A program made the translations under genes and the position numbers. Positions 3,952 to 59,989 of a DNA stretch of 64,000 bases are shown one piece after another. The notes beneath the pieces were generated by a model. That model was not told where the DNA came from. It saw only the letters and a program-made list of their open reading frames with translations, and made no database searches. Source of the stretch: Bacillus sp. MM2020_4 (GTDB lineage Bacteria; Bacillota; Bacilli; Bacillales; Cytobacillaceae); NCBI RefSeq assembly GCF_011250555.1, contig NZ_JAANMZ010000006.1:1-64000 (forward strand), given 5' to 3'. Each line of letters starts with the position of its first letter. Position 1 is the stretch's first letter.

Positions 3952-3958
3952 GGTGAAA

Positions 3959-3982
3959 CAGGGGACGGTTCTTGCGCTTCAT
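3959..3982 (-). repeat. Copy of the AACCGTCCCCTG dispersed repeat
   Basis: The block containing GGGGACGGTTCTTGCGCTTC recurs twice, inverted, at 10214-10284. Here it sits directly after the corA stop codon. Confidence 0.6.
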
Positions 3983-4906
3983 CTATTTAAAGAACGACCC
4001 TTTCTTTTTCCCTTTTAGCAGGTCTCCTGTCCAGCCTTTGATTTTTAAATAGCCATAAAGCAAAAGTGTGGAGATGATAATGAGAAGAATCGACCAACCA
4101 TAGCCGTGCCGCCATTCGAGCTCCGGCATATGTTTAAAATTCATGCCCCATAACGCCCCGAAGGCCATAACTGGGGTAAAAATCGTTGTAATCACCGTCA
4201 AGGTTTTCATAATTTCATTTCCGCGATGGGAGGAAATAACCTCCTCTAAATTAATAATCGAATCGAGCTCATGTTCATATTCATTCAGCAGCACCATCGC
4301 CCGCTCAATCCGCTTGGAAGTACAGAAAAAGTAACCCTCGCTGCCGCCCTCATGAAGATTGACTTCCTCAATTGCCATTTTGACTTCATTGATTGGAATC
4401 AGGAGATTCTTGCACACCAAAAGTTCATGCCTGCGGGTATAGACAAGCTCAAGGATCCTCGTTTCATTGCGCTTGCGCACACTCCAAATCAGTGTTTTCA
4501 GCGCCTTCTCAAACTGATCAATTTCCACTAACATCTCATTCATCAGCTCGCCAAGAAGCATTAAAAAGCCGTCTACGGCATTTTTCGCCCTCTCTAATTG
4601 CCATAAAGGCTCTTCCGAATCCATCTTAAGATTAATCGTCACCAGCATATCCGTCGTCAGATAAAAATGGAATATTTTAAAATCCCGCTCCCTGGCAAAA
4701 TGTTGTTTATAAATAAGCGACCCTTTAATAACCTTTTCCCCATTCTCTAAGCAGCCCACCCGCAGATAATTGGTTTTATTCTCCTGAACCTGCTCCAGCC
4801 AGCCGTTCGTACAATCATCCTGCTCAATCGCTTGTTTGATGCGATCCATTTCATTCTGGTGCAACTGCAAGAATTTCCATTTGTTTTCACCGATTAATTG
4901 TTCCAA
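3983..4906 (-). CDS. CorA-family divalent cation (Mg2+) transporter
   Basis: A 307-aa protein: a long soluble N-terminal domain with helical regions, then two C-terminal membrane helices. The diagnostic GMN motif lies at the end of the first helix (LWGMNFKHMPE), as in CorA/Mrs2/Alr1 channels that carry Mg2+ or related metals. The start is TTG at 4906 with AGGGGAG upstream; no earlier ATG fits. The N-terminal domain is shorter and diverged from classical CorA, so substrate specificity is not certain. It faces the ABC cassette convergently. Confidence 0.85.
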   Translation of the reverse strand: MEQLIGENKWKFLQLHQNEMDRIKQAIEQDDCTNGWLEQVQENKTNYLRVGCLENGEKVIKGSLIYKQHFARERDFKIFHFYLTTDMLVTINLKMDSEEPLWQLERAKNAVDGFLMLLGELMNEMLVEIDQFEKALKTLIWSVRKRNETRILELVYTRRHELLVCKNLLIPINEVKMAIEEVNLHEGGSEGYFFCTSKRIERAMVLLNEYEHELDSIINLEEVISSHRGNEIMKTLTVITTIFTPVMAFGALWGMNFKHMPELEWRHGYGWSILLIIISTLLLYGYLKIKGWTGDLLKGKKKGSFFK

Positions 4907-10150: not shown

Positions 10151-10213
10151 GTTTTCTATCAATACCCCTTTAATTTGACCACGGCTCCCTTCCCCAAAGA
10201 AGCCGACCAAAGG

Positions 10214-10284
10214 ATGAAGCACAGGAACCGTCCCCTGCTTCAGTTCCCCCAAAAAATGAAGCGCAAGAACCGTCCCCTGCTTCA
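10214..10284. repeat. Two direct copies of the AACCGTCCCCTG repeat
   Basis: Units starting ATGAAGC and ending CTGCTTCA at 10214-10242 and 10256-10284 share GAACCGTCCCCTGCTTCA and are 42 bp apart. Read on the minus strand, the nuoN-proximal copy forms TGAAGC...GCTTCA followed by T6, so it could act as the nuo terminator. A related copy is inverted at 3959-3982. Confidence 0.7.
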
Positions 10285-11772
10285 CTACTTCAAATTATTC
10301 AAAAAGTCGAGCGCGATGTTTGGCATGATCCCAAACAGTACAGATCCGACGACGGCGACGAGCAAGACGACGACGATACCGAATGGAATGTTCAGCTTGC
10401 GATCGTCAGTTGCCGGGCGGAAGAACATTTGTGTCATGACACCGAAATAATAGAAGTACGAAACAACGGTTGTCGCAATCATAATCGCTGCCAGTACATA
10501 ATGCGGTGTACCGGCGAAGGCGCCGACAAAAATGTTTAATTTGCCGATGAAGCCGGCAGTGCCCGGGAAGCCTGCCAGGGAAACGAGTAAAATTCCCATT
10601 AGGACGGCTAGTACAGGTGAGCGGCGGTAAAGGCCGGCAAAGTCGGCAATCTGCGTGCTGCCGGACTTTTCGGTCACTACTTGGATGACCGCAAACGCGC
10701 CAAGGTTCATTAACATGTATGCAAGCAAGTAGAACCAAATCGAATAAATCATATTCGTGCTCAGTGTCGTTAGTGCCACCAGGATATAACCGGCATGGGC
10801 GATACTGGAATAGGCAAACATCCGTTTAATATTCGATTGTTTCAAGGCAACGACGTTACCGACAATCATCGTGACTGCGGCAATAACGGCAAGGTAGTCA
10901 TGCATTTTAAACAAGATACTTTCACCATTGGCACCCGTTGGCGCGGCATTGTAGAATACCGCAATTAGAATCCGGATAACGATGACGAAGCCGGCAGTCT
11001 TCGAAATGACGCTTAAGAAGGCCGTAACTGGTGTCGGCGCACCCTGATACACATCTGGTGCCCACATATGGAACGGTGCCGCTGCCAGTTTGAACGATAA
11101 TCCGACAAGAATCATTAAAAACGCAAGTCCGAGCAGATAGGCCTGCTGACCATCAGAAATCGCCGATACTGTCGTGGCAATTTCAAAAAGATTGGTTGAT
11201 CCGGTCAAGCCGTACACATAGCTCATCCCAAACAACGTGATCGAGGTGGAAATACCGCCATTGATGACGTATTTCATCGCCGATTCATTCGATTGCCTGT
11301 TGTGCTTCTTGATGCCAGCTAAGATATAGGAAGGAATCGATAACAATTCTAACCCAATAAATAACGTGATTAAGTCACCGCTTGATGTCATAATCATCGC
11401 ACCAAGCAAAGCTGCTAAGAATAAGTAATAAAATTCGCCGCGATAGTCTTCAAGGCCTTCTTTTGCCTCATAGCTGATCGCTAAAAAGAGCACAAGTGCC
11501 CCTCCGACGAGCAGGATGAGTTTGAACGCTTTTCCGAATACATCAAGTGTGAAGGAATCGTCTAAAATTGAAGTCGCCTCCGTGCCAAGCAGGCTGGCAA
11601 CCGCGATGATAGCCGCTACTACCCCGGCGATCCCGATCCAGCCGAGGATGCGGCGATCTTGTCTTTTCGGTAAAAATAAATCCAACAATGTCAATAGTGC
11701 GATGACGCCAAGGATGATGAACTCAGGCGTCATGACACTCCAGTTAAATGATTTCAATGTCTCTATATCCAT
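10285..11772 (-). CDS. nuoN: NADH-quinone oxidoreductase subunit N
   Basis: 495 aa, an antiporter-like membrane subunit of complex I with about 14 helices, and the usual length for NuoN. Conserved buried charges can be seen in FIGLELLSIPSYILAG, SFKLAAAPFHMWAPDVYQGAPTP-type sequence and KRMFAYSSIAHAGYI. It is the last gene of the nuo operon, 6 bp after nuoM. Role: proton translocation in the membrane arm. Confidence 0.95.
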   Translation of the reverse strand: MDIETLKSFNWSVMTPEFIILGVIALLTLLDLFLPKRQDRRILGWIGIAGVVAAIIAVASLLGTEATSILDDSFTLDVFGKAFKLILLVGGALVLFLAISYEAKEGLEDYRGEFYYLFLAALLGAMIMTSSGDLITLFIGLELLSIPSYILAGIKKHNRQSNESAMKYVINGGISTSITLFGMSYVYGLTGSTNLFEIATTVSAISDGQQAYLLGLAFLMILVGLSFKLAAAPFHMWAPDVYQGAPTPVTAFLSVISKTAGFVIVIRILIAVFYNAAPTGANGESILFKMHDYLAVIAAVTMIVGNVVALKQSNIKRMFAYSSIAHAGYILVALTTLSTNMIYSIWFYLLAYMLMNLGAFAVIQVVTEKSGSTQIADFAGLYRRSPVLAVLMGILLVSLAGFPGTAGFIGKLNIFVGAFAGTPHYVLAAIMIATTVVSYFYYFGVMTQMFFRPATDDRKLNIPFGIVVVLLVAVVGSVLFGIMPNIALDFLNNLK

Positions 11773-15187: not shown

Positions 15188-15272
15188 GGTGCCTGTCACA
15201 ACCCGAATTTTGTCGATTATGGTGCCTGTCACCCTTAACCACTCTCACATAGGAGAAATGGTGTCAGGCACC
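15188..15272. repeat. GGTGCCTGTCACC / GGTGTCAGGCACC element inside the nuo operon
   Basis: Half sites lie at 15188-15200 (degenerate), 15221-15233 and 15260-15272. The last two are inverted and span exactly 52 bp, the same span as copies at 33795, 39754 and 44904. Confidence 0.75.
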
Positions 15273-16566: not shown

Positions 16567-16628
16567 TGGTGTAAGAAACCGTTTCGCGCACTTATACAGT
16601 GTAAATGCAGTTATAGGTGTCAGGCACC
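16567..16628. repeat. Degenerate plus intact GGTGTCAGGCACC half sites between nuoI and nuoH
   Basis: GGTGTAAGAAACC at 16567-16579 and GGTGTCAGGCACC at 16616-16628 are direct and span 62 bp, close to the 61-bp span of the copies at 36346 and 42201. Confidence 0.55.
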
Positions 16629-18741: not shown

Positions 18742-20118
18742 TTATACCTCCACATCATACTGTTCATAATCTTTACGCAGTGGATGGCCAACCCAATCTT
18801 CCCCAAGCAGGATCCGATGTAAATTCGGATGTCCTTTAAACTTAATTCCAAGTAAATCAAATGCTTCACATTCAGGCCAGTTCGCTCCGGCCCAAATTGG
18901 CTGCAAGGACTCGATTGTTGGTTCATCGCGGTCAATCTTCACTTTTAACGCCACCGTTTGCCGGTTTTTGTATGAGTACAAGTGAACATAGACTTCCATA
19001 TGTGTTTCGAAATCCGATCCATGCAGCTCAGATAGATAATCAAACCCAAGCAGCTCATTATATTTTAAAAATTGAGCCACTTTAAAATATGTATCATGCT
19101 TTGCCACAAGTGTCGGAACATCTTTGGATAGTTTATTAATATAAGAATCTTCTAAAACATCAGAACCTAAGTTTTCGGCAATCACCTTCACATACTTATC
19201 TAAGTACGGCTGATTTGGTGATGGTTTCGCTTCGGCTGCCGGGGTCGCTGCATCGCCAGCTTTTCCACCCGCTGCTGCCTTGGCTTTTGCTGCCGCCGCT
19301 GCTTTGGCTTTTGCCTTTGCCGCTGCGATGGCTTTCGCTTTCTCATCATCGCCACCTGCTGCTGACGCGTCTGATCCAGCTCCTGCACCGGCTGCTTTGG
19401 CTTTTGCCGCTGCTGCTGCTTTCGCCTTCGCTACCGCTACTGCCTTGGCTTTCGCTGCTGCCGCCGCTTTTGCCTTCGCATCGTCACCTGTTGCAGCATC
19501 TTCGACAGTGCCGCCCGCTTGTTCCGTTGCTTTACGTTTCGCCGCCGCCGCTGCTTTTGCCTTTGCTACCGCTGCTGCTTTTTTCTTCGCTAGATCATCG
19601 GCATCGTTTGCCGCTGGTGTTTCTGGTTCTACGGCCGGGGCCTCTTCACTCACTGGACCATTGCCTCCAGCCAGTTCCATCGCCTTCCGCTTGGCCGCCG
19701 CCGCTGCTTTTGCCTTTGCTACCGCTGCTGCCTTTTTCTTTGCTAGATCATCGGCATCGTTTGCCACTGGTGTTTCCTCTACTGGCGTTGCCGTTTCTAC
19801 CGGCGGCGTTGATTCTGCCGCCAAGGCAGTCTCATCTGCGGACCCTTCCCGTTTCTTCTTCGCCAGTGCAGCTGCTTTCGCTTTTGCTGCCGCTGCTGCT
19901 TTTTTCTTCGCTAAATCAGCATCATCTGCTCCAACTGGGGCTTGCGATGTGGCTGCTGCCGGTGTTTCAGCCTTTTCCGATCCAACCTCTGGTTTCGGTG
20001 CTTCCGGTTTCGGCTCTGCAACCCCCGCTTCCTTCGCCTTTCGCTTTGCTAATGCCGCAGCTTTAGCCTTTTCAGCGGCTTCTCTCTTTAATTGATCGAG
20101 ATCTTTTTCCCCGCTCAT
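18742..20118 (-). CDS. nuoC: NADH-quinone oxidoreductase subunit C with a giant Ala/Lys-rich N-terminal extension
   Basis: 458 aa. The conserved 30-kDa domain is only the last 157 residues (from about residue 302, NQPYLDKYVKV, with WPECEAFDLLGIKFKGHPNL and GHPLRKDYE). The first 301 residues are low complexity. They contain repeats of DDLAKKKAAAVAKAKAAA type separated by acidic Pro/Glu linkers, probably long helical segments. Ala/Lys extensions of NuoC occur in other Bacillus as far as known, but this one is very long. ATG 20118 is 3 bp after nuoB. The domain bridges NuoD/NuoB to the peripheral arm. Confidence 0.92.
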   Translation of the reverse strand: MSGEKDLDQLKREAAEKAKAAALAKRKAKEAGVAEPKPEAPKPEVGSEKAETPAAATSQAPVGADDADLAKKKAAAAAKAKAAALAKKKREGSADETALAAESTPPVETATPVEETPVANDADDLAKKKAAAVAKAKAAAAAKRKAMELAGGNGPVSEEAPAVEPETPAANDADDLAKKKAAAVAKAKAAAAAKRKATEQAGGTVEDAATGDDAKAKAAAAAKAKAVAVAKAKAAAAAKAKAAGAGAGSDASAAGGDDEKAKAIAAAKAKAKAAAAAKAKAAAGGKAGDAATPAAEAKPSPNQPYLDKYVKVIAENLGSDVLEDSYINKLSKDVPTLVAKHDTYFKVAQFLKYNELLGFDYLSELHGSDFETHMEVYVHLYSYKNRQTVALKVKIDRDEPTIESLQPIWAGANWPECEAFDLLGIKFKGHPNLHRILLGEDWVGHPLRKDYEQYDVEV

Positions 20119-21597: not shown

Positions 21598-21619
21598 TTG
21601 TAATTTGGACTAAGAGAAA

Positions 21620-21665
21620 TGTCCAGCTCCAAGCGCCGATAATCACGCGCTTTCCGCTTTTCTTT

Positions 21666-27245: not shown

Positions 27246-27258
27246 GGTGCCTGACACC
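27246..27258. repeat. Single GGTGCCTGACACC half site between atpF and atpE
   Basis: Identical to the half sites of the paired elements elsewhere; no partner within 100 bp. Confidence 0.6.
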
Positions 27259-32232: not shown

Positions 32233-32386
32233 AAAAGCGAAAAGTGGAAGGCGTCCGTTTATCGGCGTATGGCCTGGAGGACTTCGACTGAGATAAAGGA
32301 AACACGGGGAACGAAGTGATCCGATGTTGACTTATCGTAGGGAGAAGAGCGAAGTACACTAGCCGATGACGCCTGGAGCTGGACAA
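32233..32386 (+). repeat. Full-length copy of the AAAAGYGGAA...GGAGCTGGACA element
   Basis: About 154 bp beginning with AAAAGTGGAAGGCG and ending CGCCTGGAGCTGGACAA. Its ends match the 35-50-bp copies at 21620, 26095 and 38185. Partial internal complementarity (AAGGCG near the left end with CGCCT near the right) could fold it. There is no coding potential. Confidence 0.65.
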
Positions 32387-32411
32387 TTCCCAAAGTCAAA
32401 ATTATTTTTCC

Positions 32412-33794: not shown

Positions 33795-33846
33795 GGTGCC
33801 TGACACCATTACTAATCCAACAGTAGTAGAAATGGTGCCTGTCACC
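33795..33846. repeat. Paired 13-bp element after ywlG, 52-bp span
   Basis: GGTGCCTGACACC (33795-33807) and GGTGCCTGTCACC (33834-33846). Here the halves are direct rather than inverted, but the span is again exactly 52 bp. Confidence 0.7.
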
Positions 33847-36345: not shown

Positions 36346-36406
36346 GGTGCCTGTCACCGTTAATCATTTATCTACAGTAGATAGCTGAAAAAGGGTGTCA
36401 GGCACC
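36346..36406. repeat. Paired 13-bp element after ywlC, 61-bp span
   Basis: GGTGCCTGTCACC (36346-36358) and the inverted GGTGTCAGGCACC (36394-36406), immediately downstream of the ywlC stop codon. Confidence 0.75.
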
Positions 36407-38184: not shown

Positions 38185-38219
38185 AAAAAGAAAAACGCTA
38201 GGGCGCTGGAGCTGGACAT
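38185..38219 (+). repeat. Short copy of the GGAGCTGGACA element
   Basis: AAAAAGAAAAACGC, then GGGCGCTGGAGCTGGACA, in the gap between spoIIR and ywlB; a deleted version of the 154-bp copy at 32233. Confidence 0.55.
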
Positions 38220-38252
38220 TTCTCAAAGTTGAAATTTATACTTTCTTATCTG

Positions 38253-39284: not shown

Positions 39285-39317
39285 CAAAAAAGCCTCGGGA
39301 TTCTTACACCCCGAAGC
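39285..39317 (-). terminator. Terminator of prfA-prmC
   Basis: On the minus strand, GCTTCGGG and CCCGAGGC form the stem, with TTTTTT after it. It overlaps the last codons of prmC. Confidence 0.7.
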
Positions 39318-40233
39318 CAATCTCCGCAAACACCATGCGATCCTTGCCATTAATATCCTTCACGACTTCTACCTTTACATTCGTAAATTCCTTTTGAAAA
39401 AGCTCCGCTACCGCTTCGCCCTGACCGGCCCCGATTTCAAAACATACCAGCGCGCACGGTGCGAGTACTTGCGGCAGCTCCACCATGAATCGGCGGTAAA
39501 AATCCAGTCCATCCTCGCCCGCAAACAAAGCTCGATGCGGCTCATGCTCTGTCACCACCTCGGACATCGTCGTTTGATCTCCAACCGGAATATACGGCGG
39601 ATTGGAAATGACCACATCGAACGCCCCGCCAATAAACGGCGTTAATAAATCCCCCTGAACAAATTCCACCTCAGCCTGAAGGCGGCGGGCATTTTCCCGC
39701 GCCACCTCTAAAGATTCTGCAGCAATATCAGAGGCAAACACCGTCAATGTGTTGGTGCCTGACACCCTTTCTACTGCCTTCATAGTGGTATTGGTGTCAG
39801 GCACCGGTCTTGTTTCCCATTCGAGTTTTAAACTGATGGCAATGGCGCCGCTGCCTGTGCCGATGTCGACGAGCCTGATTTCCCGGTCGCAGCCAGTGAA
39901 AATCCGCTCCATCCTTCTTAAAGCCCCGTAAACAAGTTCTTCTGTTTCCGGCCTCGGAATTAGCACCTCTTCATTAACCATAAACGTCCGGCCGTAAAAC
40001 TCCTCCGAGCCGATGAGATATTGTACGGGCACGCCATTTCCGTGCTCCCTTACAGCCTGCTCAAAATCAGCCCAAACCGCGGGCGGTAACTCCTCACGCA
40101 TCTCAGAAAACAGCTGCGCCCTCGACCATCCAGTAAAATGCCGTAGTAACAATTCCCCCGCATTCTCTTCCCGATTCGATTCCAATAAAAAAGAAGAAGC
40201 CCATTTCAGAGCTTCGAATACTTTTTTACTCAT
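39304..40233 (-). CDS. prmC: Peptide chain release factor N5-glutamine methyltransferase with an in-frame repeat insertion
   Basis: 309 aa. It methylates the Gln of the GGQ motif of release factors. The SAM motif is [14 protein letters not shown] and the catalytic motif SNPPY. Between the first Rossmann helix (ending LKLE) and strand 2 (LTVFASDIA) there are about 20 extra residues ([18 protein letters not shown]) that are encoded exactly by a 52-bp repeat element. ATG 40233 with AGAGG overlaps the prfA end by 8 bp. Confidence 0.93.
39754..39805. repeat. 52-bp paired element inside prmC
   Basis: GGTGCCTGACACC (39754-39766) and inverted GGTGTCAGGCACC (39793-39805). It encodes residues 143-160 of PrmC without breaking the frame. 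Confidence 0.85.
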
Positions 40234-41305
40234 TTGATGCCTCTTCAAGTCTTCTTGCCTGGTCATCCATCACTAACGCATCAATGATTTCATCCAGCTT
40301 GCCTTCGATGATTTGGTCTAGTTTTTGAATGGTCAGGCCAATGCGGTGATCCGTCACCCGATTTTGCGGGAAGTTGTACGTGCGAATCCGTTCAGATCGG
40401 TCACCGGTACCGACTGCTGATTTACGAACCTGATCATATTCGGCCTGCGCTTCCTGCTGGAACTTGTCATACACACGCGCACGCAATACCTTCATCGCCT
40501 TATCCCTGTTTTTATGCTGGGATTTTTCATCCTGAATCGATACCATAATACCTGTTGGAAGGTGTGTCAAACGAACGGCCGACATCGTCGTATTAACGGA
40601 TTGCCCGCCCGCACCGCTTGAAGCAAACGTATCAAAACGGATATCTTTATCATGAATCTCATATTCAAATTCTTCTGCTTCCGGTAAACAAACAACTGTA
40701 GCTGTCGAGGTATGAATTCGCCCGCCAGATTCCGTTTCCGGAACACGTTGCACCCGGTGTGCCCCGTTCTCAAATTTCAATTTTGAGTAGGCACCAGCGC
40801 CATTAATCATAAAACTAATTTCCTTGTAGCCGCCAAGACCAGTAGGGCTCGCATCGATCAAATCTGTCTTCCAGCCCTGTGCTTCCGCATATCGGCTATA
40901 CATCCGATAGAGGGAACCAGCAAATAAAGCCGCCTCATCACCGCCGGCCGCACCGCGGATTTCAAAGATAACGTTCTTATCATCATTCGGATCCTTTGGA
41001 ACGAGAAGAATTTTCATCTTTTCTTCCAACTCCGCAATTTGCGTCTCTAGATCATGAACCTCTTCTTTTACCATTTCGCGCATTTCTGCATCTAACTTTT
41101 CATCGAGCATTGCCCTTGCATCTTTGTGCTGCTCCTTCGCCTCTTTATATTGGCGATACGTTTGCACCGTTTCTTGTATATCAGATTGTTCTTTTGAAAA
41201 TTCACGAAGTTTTTTTGAATCATTAATAATTTCGGGGTCGCTCAAAAGTTCGTTTAACCTTTCGTAGCGATCCTCCACTGATTGTAGACGATCAAACACA
41301 GTCAT
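40226..41305 (-). CDS. prfA: Peptide chain release factor 1
   Basis: 359 aa. It recognises UAA and UAG: the RF1-type PxT tripeptide is PET in [14 protein letters not shown], and the GGQ loop is [12 protein letters not shown]. The N-terminal domain is a long coiled coil. It lies directly upstream of the enzyme that methylates it. Confidence 0.97.
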
Positions 41306-42200: not shown

Positions 42201-42261
42201 GGTGTCAGGCACCATAAACTGCTTTTGTACAGTGTTTATACCATTATTGGTGTCAGGCACC
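42201..42261. repeat. Two direct GGTGTCAGGCACC half sites, 61-bp span
   Basis: 42201-42213 and 42249-42261. The bases before each half also match (ACAGTGTTTA), giving a direct repeat of about 35 bp. It lies just downstream of tdk. Confidence 0.75.
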
Positions 42262-43197: not shown

Positions 43198-43403
43198 TCT
43201 TTTCATCTCCTTCCGCCCTGAATCATTCGAAACAGAGTTATGGTAAATGCTTGTCAAAAAAACAAGCAGCAATATACTAAAAACACACTGCAACCATTAT
43301 AACAAGGTCAACTTATTTTGGCAAGTTGGGATTTGCTGGTTTTTTTTGAAAAAGGAACCTAACTTTGCTCCCCAACTAGGCAAGACCTAGGAGTCATTTT
43401 CTT

Positions 43404-44666: not shown

Positions 44667-44973
44667 TTGTGCACCACACTTTAAAATTTTTCCATCAAAC
44701 CGCTTATTTTTTAGACAGCGGGAGATTGTAAGTAAAATAAAAATTAAGAGTTAGAGGAATTGAATGGGAAGTAGATAAAGAAATGAATAGAATGGCAGAA
44801 ATTATGCACACTAAAAACAATTACTATTTTACCCTCTGTACGAAAAATTAATCAACTACATTTACATATTTTTTAAGTTGGAAATTTTTCCTATGAATGA
44901 ATTGGTGCCTGACACCCTTTGCACTATCTCCGTGCAGTTATTGGTGTCAGGCACCATTTTTCCGCTTTTCGTG
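44667..44973. other. Gap between glpX and rho
   Basis: No gene. It contains the leader side of rho, including a small stem CCGCT...AGCGG at about 44698-44723, AT-rich DNA, and the 52-bp paired repeat at 44904-44955. No clear consensus promoter could be picked for rho. Confidence 0.5.
44904..44955. repeat. Paired 13-bp inverted element after glpX, 52-bp span
   Basis: GGTGCCTGACACC (44904-44916) and GGTGTCAGGCACC (44943-44955) are perfect inverted repeats with a 26-base interior. It is the best copy of the family in the window. Confidence 0.85.
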
Positions 44974-53593: not shown

Positions 53594-53606
53594 GGTGCCT
53601 GCCACC
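53594..53606. repeat. Single GGTGCCTGCCACC half site after icmF
   Basis: One mismatch to the 13-bp half sites elsewhere. It sits about 25 bp beyond the icmF stop. Confidence 0.5.
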
Positions 53607-57641: not shown

Positions 57642-58781
57642 TTATTTGGTTAACATTCTTGAAATAACGAGGCGCTGAATTTCCTGTGTCCCCTCATAAA
57701 TCTGGGTGATTTTCGCATCACGCATGAAACGCTCGACCGGATAATCCTTCGTATAGCCATAGCCCCCAAATACTTGAACGGCTTCCGTTGTCACTTTCAT
57801 CGCCGTGTCGCCGGCAAATAATTTCGACATCGCCGATTCTTTACCATATGGTAAGCCGTTTGATTCCAACCACGCCGCTTGATAGGTTAATAGTCTTGAA
57901 GCCTCAATATTCGTCGCCATATCAGCTAGTTTAAAGCTGATGCCTTGGTTTGCCGCAATCGGTTTTCCAAACTGATGGCGCTCCTTCGCATAGTCAACTG
58001 CAGCATCAAGTGCCCCTTGGGCGATCCCCACTGCCTGCGCCGCGATACCGTTACGGCCGCCATCAAGGGTCATCATCGCCACCTTAAAGCCATCGCCCTC
58101 TTCACCAAGTCGGTTGGCAACAGGGACCTTGCAATCTTCAAAAATAATTTCTGTTGTCGGCGATGAACGAATCCCGAGTTTCTTTTCTTTTTTCCCAACA
58201 GAGAAACCTGGGAAATCACTCTCGACGATAAACGCAGTCGTTCCTTTATGCTTGCTGGTTGGATCTGTTACAGCAAAGACAACGTAAATTTCAGCCTCGC
58301 CGCCATTGGTGATGAAAATCTTTGAACCGTTCAGGACGTAATGATCGCCCTCGAGACGTGCTGTTGTTCTCATTCCACCGGCATCCGAACCGCTGCCAGG
58401 CTCCGTTAAGCCATAGGCGCCAATTTTCTTGCCTTCCGCCATGGGGCGCAGGTATGTTTGTTTTTGCTCTTCATTGCCAAATTTGTAAATTGGCCAGCCT
58501 GCTAGAGACGTATGAGCAGAAAGCATTACACCTGTAGATGCATCCACGCGGGACAGCTCTTCAACAGCAATACAATAAGCAAGATAGTCGCTGCCAATGC
58601 CGCCGTATTCTTCCGGCCACGGAATCCCCGTTAAGCCCAGCTCCGCCATTTTGTCAAAAATCTCACGGTCAAAGCGCTCTTCCTCGTCCCGCTCAGCCGC
58701 CGTCGGTGCCACTTCATTCCGTGCAAAGTCACGTACCATTTTTCGAATCATTTCATGCTCTTCTGATAATTTAAATTGCAT
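57642..58781 (-). CDS. Acyl-CoA dehydrogenase
   Basis: A 379-aa FAD enzyme of the short-chain family. Motifs: [35 protein letters not shown], and the C-terminal [41 protein letters not shown], which holds the catalytic Glu in YEGT. ATG 58781 follows AGGAGG. It resembles Bacillus AcdA/MmgC. The substrate may be butyryl- or branched short-chain acyl-CoA, consistent with icmF in the operon. Confidence 0.93.
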
Positions 58782-58858: not shown

Positions 58859-59989
58859 TTACAAATACTTACTAATCACTATCCGCTGAATCTCGCTCGT
58901 TCCTTCGTAAATCTCTGTTACCTTTGCATCTCGGAAATAACGCTCAACCGGGTAATCTTCCGTATAACCGTAGCCGCCAAATACTTGAATGGCTTCTGTT
59001 GTGACCTCAACCGCCGTCCTGGTCGCAAACAGCTTCGCCATCGAGGCTTCCAGGCCGCATTTCAACCCCTGGCTGCGCAAATCCGCGGCGCGATAGACTA
59101 ATAGTTTGGCTGCCTCAACACTTGTCGCCATGTCTGCAAGCTTAAAAGCAATCCCTTGCTGAGCGGCAATCGGCTTGCCAAATTGCTGACGCTCCTTCGC
59201 ATAGGCCGTTGCGGCCGACAGTGCGGCCTCCGCAATGCCAAGTGCCTGGGTGGCAATCCCGATGCGGCCGACATCCAGGTTGGCCATCGCAATTTTAAAG
59301 CCTTCACTTTCATTCCCAAGAAGATTTTCCACCGGAACATGCATGTCTTCAAACGTCAGCTGAACCGTTCGCGAGCCGTGCAAGCCCATTTTCTTCTCAT
59401 CCTTACCGATGATAAGACCCGGGGTATCTTTTTCCACAATAAAGGCAGCAATCCCCTTTGTGCCTAATCTCTGGTCCGTGTTGGCAAAAACAATATAAAT
59501 ATCGGCCTCGCCGCCGTTGGTAATAAACATTTTTGAACCGTTAAGGATATACTGGTCACCCTTCTTGACTGCGCGGGTCTTCAAGCTCGCGGCATCCGAC
59601 CCTGAGCTTGGCTCAGTTAAACAAAAGGCCCCCAAATACTCCCCAGAGGCAAGCTTCGGCACGTACTTCTGCTTCTGCTCCTCTGTGCCAAAATAAACAA
59701 TCGGGTTAGTACCAACCGAGGTATGCACGGAAAGGATGACACCAAGCGTTGCACTCACCCTAGATATCTCGTTAATGGCAATAATATAAGAGGTGAAATC
59801 CATTTCGGCTCCGCCGTATTTCTCGGGGACCGGAATCCCCATCAGGCCCAGCTCGCCCATTTTGCGGAGGATTTCGCGCGGGAACTCCCCCTTTTCCATA
59901 TTTTCAATAAATGGGGCCATTTCGTTCTCGGCAAAATCGCGTACCATTTTCCGCATCATTTCTTGTTCTTCCGTAAATGTAAGCTTCAC
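58859..59989 (-). CDS. Acyl-CoA dehydrogenase (second paralogue)
   Basis: 376 aa, clearly related to the neighbouring enzyme, with [36 protein letters not shown] and [34 protein letters not shown] (catalytic Glu). The frame is open to 60106, but GTG 59989 with AAAGGGG gives the normal [15 protein letters not shown] start. Tandem paralogues suggest different chain length or branching preference. Confidence 0.93.

Follow-up and report, generated by a model that had tools for sequence, protein, structure and literature searches.

The whole 64,000-nucleotide stretch of DNA analysed here (the window) raises the question of how two copies of a dispersed repeat came to be read as codons inside prmC, the gene for release-factor glutamine methyltransferase, and of what kind of element they represent. 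In agreement with the original prediction, the copies form an inverted 52-bp pair of repetitive extragenic palindromic (REP) type that lies in frame within an uninterrupted open reading frame (ORF) of 320 aa (Table 1). The extra residues had also been held to be encoded precisely by this pair, and here a correction is needed: the distance between the DIGTGSG and GDLL motifs is 43 residues in insertion-free PrmC proteins vs 64 in the window's PrmC, a net gain of 21 aa or 63 bp, and the nearest relative (L031/L133) carries 25 extra aa (75 bp) flanked by a Glu and a Gln codon, the native residues downstream being kept. In the window, approximately 9 bp of native sequence were lost; since about three native codons are gone, the foreign stretch should correspond approximately to the 72 bp given in Table 1, and the 52-bp pair is most of the insert, not the whole of it. 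The edges were derived from the comparison with L020, which has no insert, and with the 75-bp insert of L031/L133. No clean target-site duplication was seen at the prmC insert; a GAA possibly present at both edges was noted in the nearest relative only. In Rfam, no family matched the prmC element at the gathering threshold.

Table 1 Features of the prmC locus, REP pairs and single cores in the window, and exact 13-mers at native codons elsewhere (positions refer to the window unless a locus is named)
Feature	Position	Strand	Remarks
prmC, release-factor glutamine methyltransferase ORF	39304..40266	-	320 aa from first ATG, uninterrupted
Whole inserted stretch relative to insertion-free relatives	39748..39819	-	72 bp; edges inferred from comparison
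REP pair in prmC, GGTGCCTGACACC-N26-GGTGTCAGGCACC	39754..39805		52 bp, inverted, in frame
REP core copy GGTGCCTGACACC on +	39754..39766	+	prmC frame (minus strand) reads V-S-G-T
Spacer of prmC REP pair	39767..39792		26 nt; core spacing 39 bp = 13 codons
REP core copy GGTGTCAGGCACC on +	39793..39805	+	prmC frame (minus strand) reads V-P-D-T
Intergenic REP pair, same build as prmC pair	44904..44955		39-bp spacing, inverted
Intergenic REP pair	15221..15272		39-bp spacing, inverted; one-mismatch core beside at 15188
Intergenic REP pair	33795..33846		39-bp spacing, direct
Intergenic REP pair	36346..36406		48-bp spacing, inverted
Intergenic REP pair	42201..42261		48-bp spacing, direct
Single REP core	16616..16628	+	
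Single REP core	27246..27258	-	
Single REP core, N = G variant	53594..53606	-	
Native coding 13-mer, trhO	L062 2212		exact, no visible insertion
Native coding 13-mer, pyrC	L076 2101		exact, no visible insertion
Native coding 13-mer, pheT	L097 5530		exact, no visible insertion
Native coding 13-mer, murD	L075 2099		exact, no visible insertion
Native coding 13-mer, larE	L077 2070		exact, no visible insertion
Native coding 13-mer, comEC	L084 2026		exact, no visible insertion

Does the gene still encode a maintained enzyme? On the minus strand, prmC is preceded by prfA, and an alternative start is possible at 40233, adjoining the prfA stop. PrmC_N and methyltransferase domains were recognised in the 320-aa ORF, whose product is closest to that of Neobacillus bataviensis (86%) among the 29 named loci found. 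D134, GTGSG (136-140), D180 and NPPY (222-225) are invariant in an alignment of the window's PrmC with 23 relatives (24 rows), and dN/dS of the PrmC core is 0.09-0.2 in ten pairs from the five-genome clade described below; PrmC with the insert is still under purifying selection. In the predicted model (mean pLDDT 81.5; structure match 2b3t, E. coli PrmC from its complex with RF1, TMt 0.90), the extra residues are placed between helix 141-151 and strand 174-180, which is the loop between the first Rossmann helix and strand 2 to which they had originally been assigned. The pLDDT is below 50 at residues 154-170, corresponding to the insert, which is thus predicted to be a disordered loop; residues 225-231 and 233-249 are further parts with low pLDDT. 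In this fold, the loop presumably points away from the active site. That the insert is tolerated with the frame kept agrees with the net gain of 63 bp and with the disorder predicted by the model. In the prmC message, the REP pair as RNA gives a 13-bp hairpin (-28.8 kcal/mol, z -6.0).

Another question is whether the insert could be an artefact of assembly or sequencing. The window comes from a Neobacillus genome whose assembly is a draft of 150 contigs and 4.9 Mb. G067, an independent genome of the species in one contig, carries the same insert in a PrmC that is 98% identical, and related inserts are found in G040, G066 and G005; the identical insert in a one-contig genome argues against an assembly error, and the probability of an artefact is negligible.

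The repeated unit, the 13-mer GGTGNCAGGCACC, is a near-palindrome that occurs at 16 window sites with at most one mismatch, vs 0.10 expected. Genome-wide, 168 exact copies were counted in 4.9 Mb, 84 in each orientation, and none of the reversed pattern; one mismatch adds 29 further sites (197 minus 168), vs four for the reversed pattern. Chance occurrence is ruled out by these counts against the reversed control, by the window expectation and by the synonymous shuffling reported below. All 61 genomes of the genus contain copies (5-345 each), and across the family at least one copy is present in 120 of 151 genomes, many of which have only 1-3.

The surroundings of the copies were characterised in 42 stretches (330 kb including the window) chosen around listed sites; 110 of the 168 exact sites lie inside the stretches examined and approximately 58 outside. 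According to simple codon-usage ORF calls, 22 of the 115 sites with at most one mismatch fall in ORFs, some at gene ends. The 13-mers group into 28 pairs and 60 singles. Eighteen pairs, 8 inverted and 10 direct, have spacings of 39, 48, 57 or 66 bp; nine inverted ones are spaced 17-36 bp, several having A and T tracts as in terminators; and one, which includes a one-mismatch core, has a 33-bp spacing. Folding of three REP pairs gave z-scores of -6.0 to -11.6. A second in-frame pair was found in the SNF2 domain of a helicase (L067 5405-8431; sites 7033 and 7081, 48-bp spacing). Exact GTAG stands upstream of 19 of the 89 intergenic sites (GTGG 9, GAAG 7, TGAG 4, GATG 2), and A-G-T-R is enriched at -9..-6 in the intergenic upstream flanks. 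With 8 of 18 pairs inverted and GTAG at 19 of 89 sites, the classical REPIN/GTAG layout is therefore only partly reproduced.

The window contains several other features of a repetitive or structured nature. One is another REP-like family around GGGGACGGTTCTTGCGCTTC (3953-3987, 10213-10242 and 10251-10285), and a third dispersed repeat is TAATTTGGACTAAGAGAAATGTCCAGCTCCA (21601-21635, 32370-32404 and 38206-38236). A 177-nt direct repeat, 72% identical, lies at 57663-57839 and 58874-59050 and possibly reflects paralogous genes. An L31-Firmicutes ribosomal protein leader (Rfam RF03156) is located at 43207-43237 on the minus strand. The minus strand also encodes, at 18742-20118, a protein of 458 aa whose Ala/Lys-rich N-terminal region is built from 24-bp repeats and whose C-terminal part we take to resemble NADH dehydrogenase subunit C.

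Is the repeat linked to an enzyme able to move it? The window's genome has one Y1_Tnp gene, which is RAYT-like and lies at L061 9038-9661, with an exact 13-mer just upstream. Among 20 further Y1/RAYT loci, which include those of G040 and G067, picked with knowledge of a nearby copy, 17 show an exact 13-mer that precedes the HUH codon by 216-606 bp. The exceptions are L251 and L261, which lack the 13-mer, and L258, where only one-mismatch sites occur; all three appear to belong to other RAYT subfamilies. Of the 61 genus genomes, 58 gave a Y1_Tnp match. The three without one are G019, a one-contig genome with 171 copies, G021 with 177 and G075 with 7; for G019 and G021, this suggests that the RAYT was lost or is too divergent.

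Comparison of the window's genome with G067 bears on whether the family still moves. In 165 kb of aligned blocks, 58 of 61 exact 13-mers are shared, and the other three differ by point changes or a small gap. When flanks were placed separately, 56 of 109 sites were comparable one way and 52 of 73 the other way; among the comparable sites no gain or loss of an element was found, and one core differs by a point change. Length differences near some sites reach 344 bp, once 1492 bp, with the core present in both genomes. As no gain or loss occurred among the compared sites, there is no sign of present activity.

The copies are unevenly distributed along the chromosome. Sampled in 20 stretches of 6 kb each, the GC skew of G067 switches sign near 2.0 Mb, with a few samples on each side against the trend, and this flip was taken as the origin. 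Within 1 Mb of it lie 78 of 108 T-variant sites (p = 5e-10) or, counted as clusters, 65 of 93 (p = 8e-8); gene content or replication dosage could cause such clustering. No strand bias with respect to replication was detected among 100 of the 108 T-variant sites (minus/plus counts of 28/26 left of the flip and 21/25 right of it).

How old is the insertion in prmC, and did it occur only once? PrmC was surveyed in 53 of the 61 Neobacillus genomes (G060-G063 and G069-G072 were left out), and 29 of the 53 have a loop insert of at least 6 aa. A core with at most one mismatch is present in the loop or at its strand-2 end in 27 of these 29 proteins; in G046 the net gain is 1 aa only, yet the core is present at the loop. 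On the PrmC tree (56 rows, i.e., 53 plus 3 outgroup, loop left out), the insert state changes at least eight times, a number that represents a parsimony count and not a dated history because no single branch separates the outgroup from the other rows and support is weak for 14 of the 53 inner branches. The window's genome, G067, G040, G066 and G005 form an insert-sharing clade (support 100/98) whose sister clade (G012, G073 and G022) has no prmC insert. This insertion-free sister clade polarises the change as a gain, and the insert, judged by its distribution, is older than the diversification of the five genomes. The original prediction that the element inserts into new sites is thus upheld for the polarised in-frame gain and not for recent movement, of which an insert older than the clade is no evidence. 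Nor is the insert confined to the window's genome, as five genomes share it and the loop holds other inserts in many congeners; the observation is more general than was first proposed, since the loop has been struck repeatedly across the genus and the repeat is RAYT-linked.

The inserts range from 6 to 38 aa and vary widely in sequence. Some lengths differ by steps of 13 aa, namely, 25 aa in G040 vs 38 in G066 and G005, and 14 in G064 vs 27 in G021, G068 and G042; the 13-codon (39-bp) step fits some PrmC inserts, and other lengths do not fit it. The inserts of G075 and G049 (7 and 15 copies genome-wide) have no core at one mismatch, which may mean that inserts persist after the repeat family has dwindled or that they arose in another way. 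A second repeat-like sequence, similar to TGTCCACCTGGGGCGGACA, was observed in frame at the PrmC loop of other Neobacillus species (L134, L142, L150 and L151), and it reads C-P-P-G-A-D-K-C or similar in several species. One protein loop is a repeated landing place for REPs across the genus, and its graded states (no insert, core only, at least one unit) allow insertion and array growth to be ordered in time.

We consider it likely that a RAYT-linked, REPIN-like REP pair entered prmC in an ancestor and now forms an in-frame disordered loop of an enzyme under selection. The pair would have entered between the first Rossmann helix and strand 2 in the ancestor of the species and its nearest relatives, and the RAYT may have performed the insertion by single-strand cleavage and joining, by analogy with what others showed for TnpA-REP. 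With a net gain divisible by three and a loop free to be disordered, PrmC could stay under purifying selection with the insert in frame; the insert is presumably translated in the cell, and the loop probably leaves catalysis undisturbed. Once in place, arrays would gain or lose 39-bp units, and in other Neobacillus species this loop would have undergone repeated hits or remodelling, some of it through a different repeat-like sequence. Points that weigh against this reading are the lack of observed gains or losses within the species among the comparable sites, the two high-copy genomes that gave no Y1_Tnp match (G019 and G021), the only partial REPIN/GTAG layout, the missing clean target-site duplication, the core-less inserts of G075 and G049, and the decayed cores described below.

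Simple insertion leaves one observation unexplained, namely, the exact 13-mers at native coding sites. Approximately ten coding 13-mers lie at conserved-looking motifs of insertion-free proteins, as judged by eye (examples in Table 1), vs a rough expectation of ~ 0.09 exact coding sites per genome (2 hits in 1000 synonymous shuffles of 91 G067 ORFs taken from 20 stretches at even intervals); another estimate, of 2.7 exact coding sites, is too high because the underlying stretches were chosen around sites. An alternative reading, possible but doubtful, is that the 13-mer is a DNA-level signal, recognised by a protein and behaving like DNA uptake sequences or chromosome-organising sites, kept by selection or biased conversion, for which REP pairs are only one spreading route and of which prmC holds copies because its loop is permissive. 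The excess of exact over one-mismatch copies (168 vs 29) speaks in its favor, as do the crowding of sites near the skew flip (78 of 108 no farther than 1 Mb away) and the inverted short-loop pairs, several with terminator-like A and T tracts. The strong REP-RAYT linkage, on the other hand, may suffice for dispersal, no reader protein is known, and the density of approximately one copy per 29 kb is far below that of uptake sequences, which occur at about one copy per kb or so.

Further evidence on such a signal comes from a cross-species comparison of native sites, which covers two genes only, TrhO and PyrC. Full-length or nearly full-length matches in 60 genomes were used, the best 30 of 51 for TrhO and the best 30 of 60 for PyrC. 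The exact 13-mer is present in 20 of these best-scoring 30 TrhO loci and in 17 of the best-scoring 30 PyrC loci, and in both genes the neighbouring codons vary. The commonest codon haplotype of the TrhO core accounts for 20 of 30 loci, vs 0.17 (median) and 0.47 (maximum) in 40 comparable windows away from it in the same gene, and its uniformity ranks second of 43 windows, the first being an overlapping window. For PyrC, the commonest haplotype accounts for 18 of the 21 loci (of 30) reading V-P-D-T and ranks first of 140 windows (136 comparable windows, median 0.14, maximum 0.57). Within the species, the 58 identical 13-mers of 61 exceed the 77% identity of 296 near flanking 12-mers (p = 7e-4) and the 79% of all 646 control 12-mers (p = 1e-3). 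Moreover, the inserts in prmC of the five-genome clade share two cores; all five genomes keep the second one exact and four of the five the first, despite a core dS of 0.5-0.9 between species.

Conservation is not universal. In G005 the third core has decayed, in G009 one core, and in G021, G064 and G068 the site at strand 2; a native site in a TetR-like gene also differs between the two same-species genomes. Alongside the conserved cores, these cases indicate that nucleotide-level conservation of the 13-mer extends to many sites but not to all. Exactness in TrhO goes with a higher copy number in an uncorrected rank test (p = 2.8e-4), but the association is at the clade level, and phylogeny-paired tests of TrhO and PyrC exactness vs PrmC insertion and copy number, each with 1-5 independent pairs, gave nothing significant; the paired test of PrmC insertion vs copy number (1-5 independent pairs) was likewise not significant. 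Base-level conservation of the core at the native codons of TrhO and PyrC suggests a DNA-level role or drive beyond plain mobility. It is a surprising pattern, for which selection, biased conversion and drive are candidate causes, and it makes directly testable the long-standing question of whether REPs are only parasites of the RAYT or serve the cell. We entertain only tentatively the wider proposal that the Neobacillus REP core of the RAYT is a genome-wide signal, maintained base by base at intergenic pairs, inserts and native codons. If it were true, a signal of the uptake-sequence type would exist in a Gram-positive genus, and the reader of the 13-mer could be the RAYT itself, a competence factor or a chromosome-organising protein.

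Could the loop instead have expanded without transposition, by local duplication or slippage from a native REP-like strand 2 reading V-S-G-T-D-I? L052, in which an exact 13-mer lies at native strand 2 (V-S-G-T-D-I) and no insert is present, is a possible seed state for such expansion; the site is matched with at most one mismatch in G047 and with two mismatches in L046. Moreover, the last core is the strand-2 site itself in many inserted species, and some arrays differ by 39-bp units. The window's clade, however, keeps the native strand 2 (T-V-F-A-S-D-I or T-V-Y-A-S-D-I) with the insert upstream of it, its first pair is inverted, an arrangement that single-site slippage does not produce, and the spacer resembles intergenic copies, so that we regard this origin as improbable. 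Selection for the inserted peptide as a new functional PrmC segment is less probable still, and very unlikely, because, despite the recurrence of inserts at one loop in many species, their length (6-38 aa) and sequence vary widely, they are predicted to be disordered, and what is conserved is the 13-mer DNA though its readings differ (V-S-G-T, V-T-G-T and V-P-D-T).

In-frame REPs inside genes have been described, so the kind of event is known. The portions of PMC3733652 consulted report intragenic GTAG/CGTC REPs in protein genes, as in-frame singles and dimers, with dimers or groups adding 20-30 residues; many of them are in DNA synthesis and repair genes, and the recB genes of two Xanthomonas species carry REPs at about the same site. 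The main text of that source mentions neither hemK nor Firmicutes, and Bacillus appears twice, in one instance demonstrably for Bcr1 elements; the passages of PMC3116915 and PMC8049555 consulted contain no mention of Bacillus. No published work naming this 13-mer element was found among the matches listed, mostly from openly available literature, and neither recurrence at one loop across a genus nor base-level core conservation at insertion-free native codons was found in the literature searched. Compared with the intragenic GTAG/CGTC REPs, as presented in those portions of PMC3733652, Neobacillus has one loop with inserts in 29 of 53 genomes. The Rickettsia palindromic elements mentioned there are alike in being palindromic repeats in frame inside protein genes; RPE-1 is longer than the Neobacillus element.

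Neisseria DUS, according to passages of PMC2397512, are strictly conserved between genomes, form terminators as inverted pairs and have copies inside genes. The 13-mer resembles them in the dominance of exact copies and in nucleotide-level conservation in genes (two genes, TrhO and PyrC), whereas it is far sparser (168 in 4.9 Mb) and RAYT-linked. A close likeness is to REP/REPIN systems with a RAYT (TnpA-REP), which share a short, high-copy near-palindrome that is often paired, stands beside an HUH/Y1 transposase gene and is mostly intergenic. In these systems, as far as the consulted text of PMC8266576 goes, the E. coli TnpA-REP cleaves single-stranded REP DNA and needs GTAG, and others tolerate GTAG changes. 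The Neobacillus family differs from REP/REPIN in its degenerate tag (AGTR..AAA), in pairs that are as often direct as inverted, in pair spacings of 39, 48, 57 or 66 bp, and in exact cores that also occur at insertion-free native codons.
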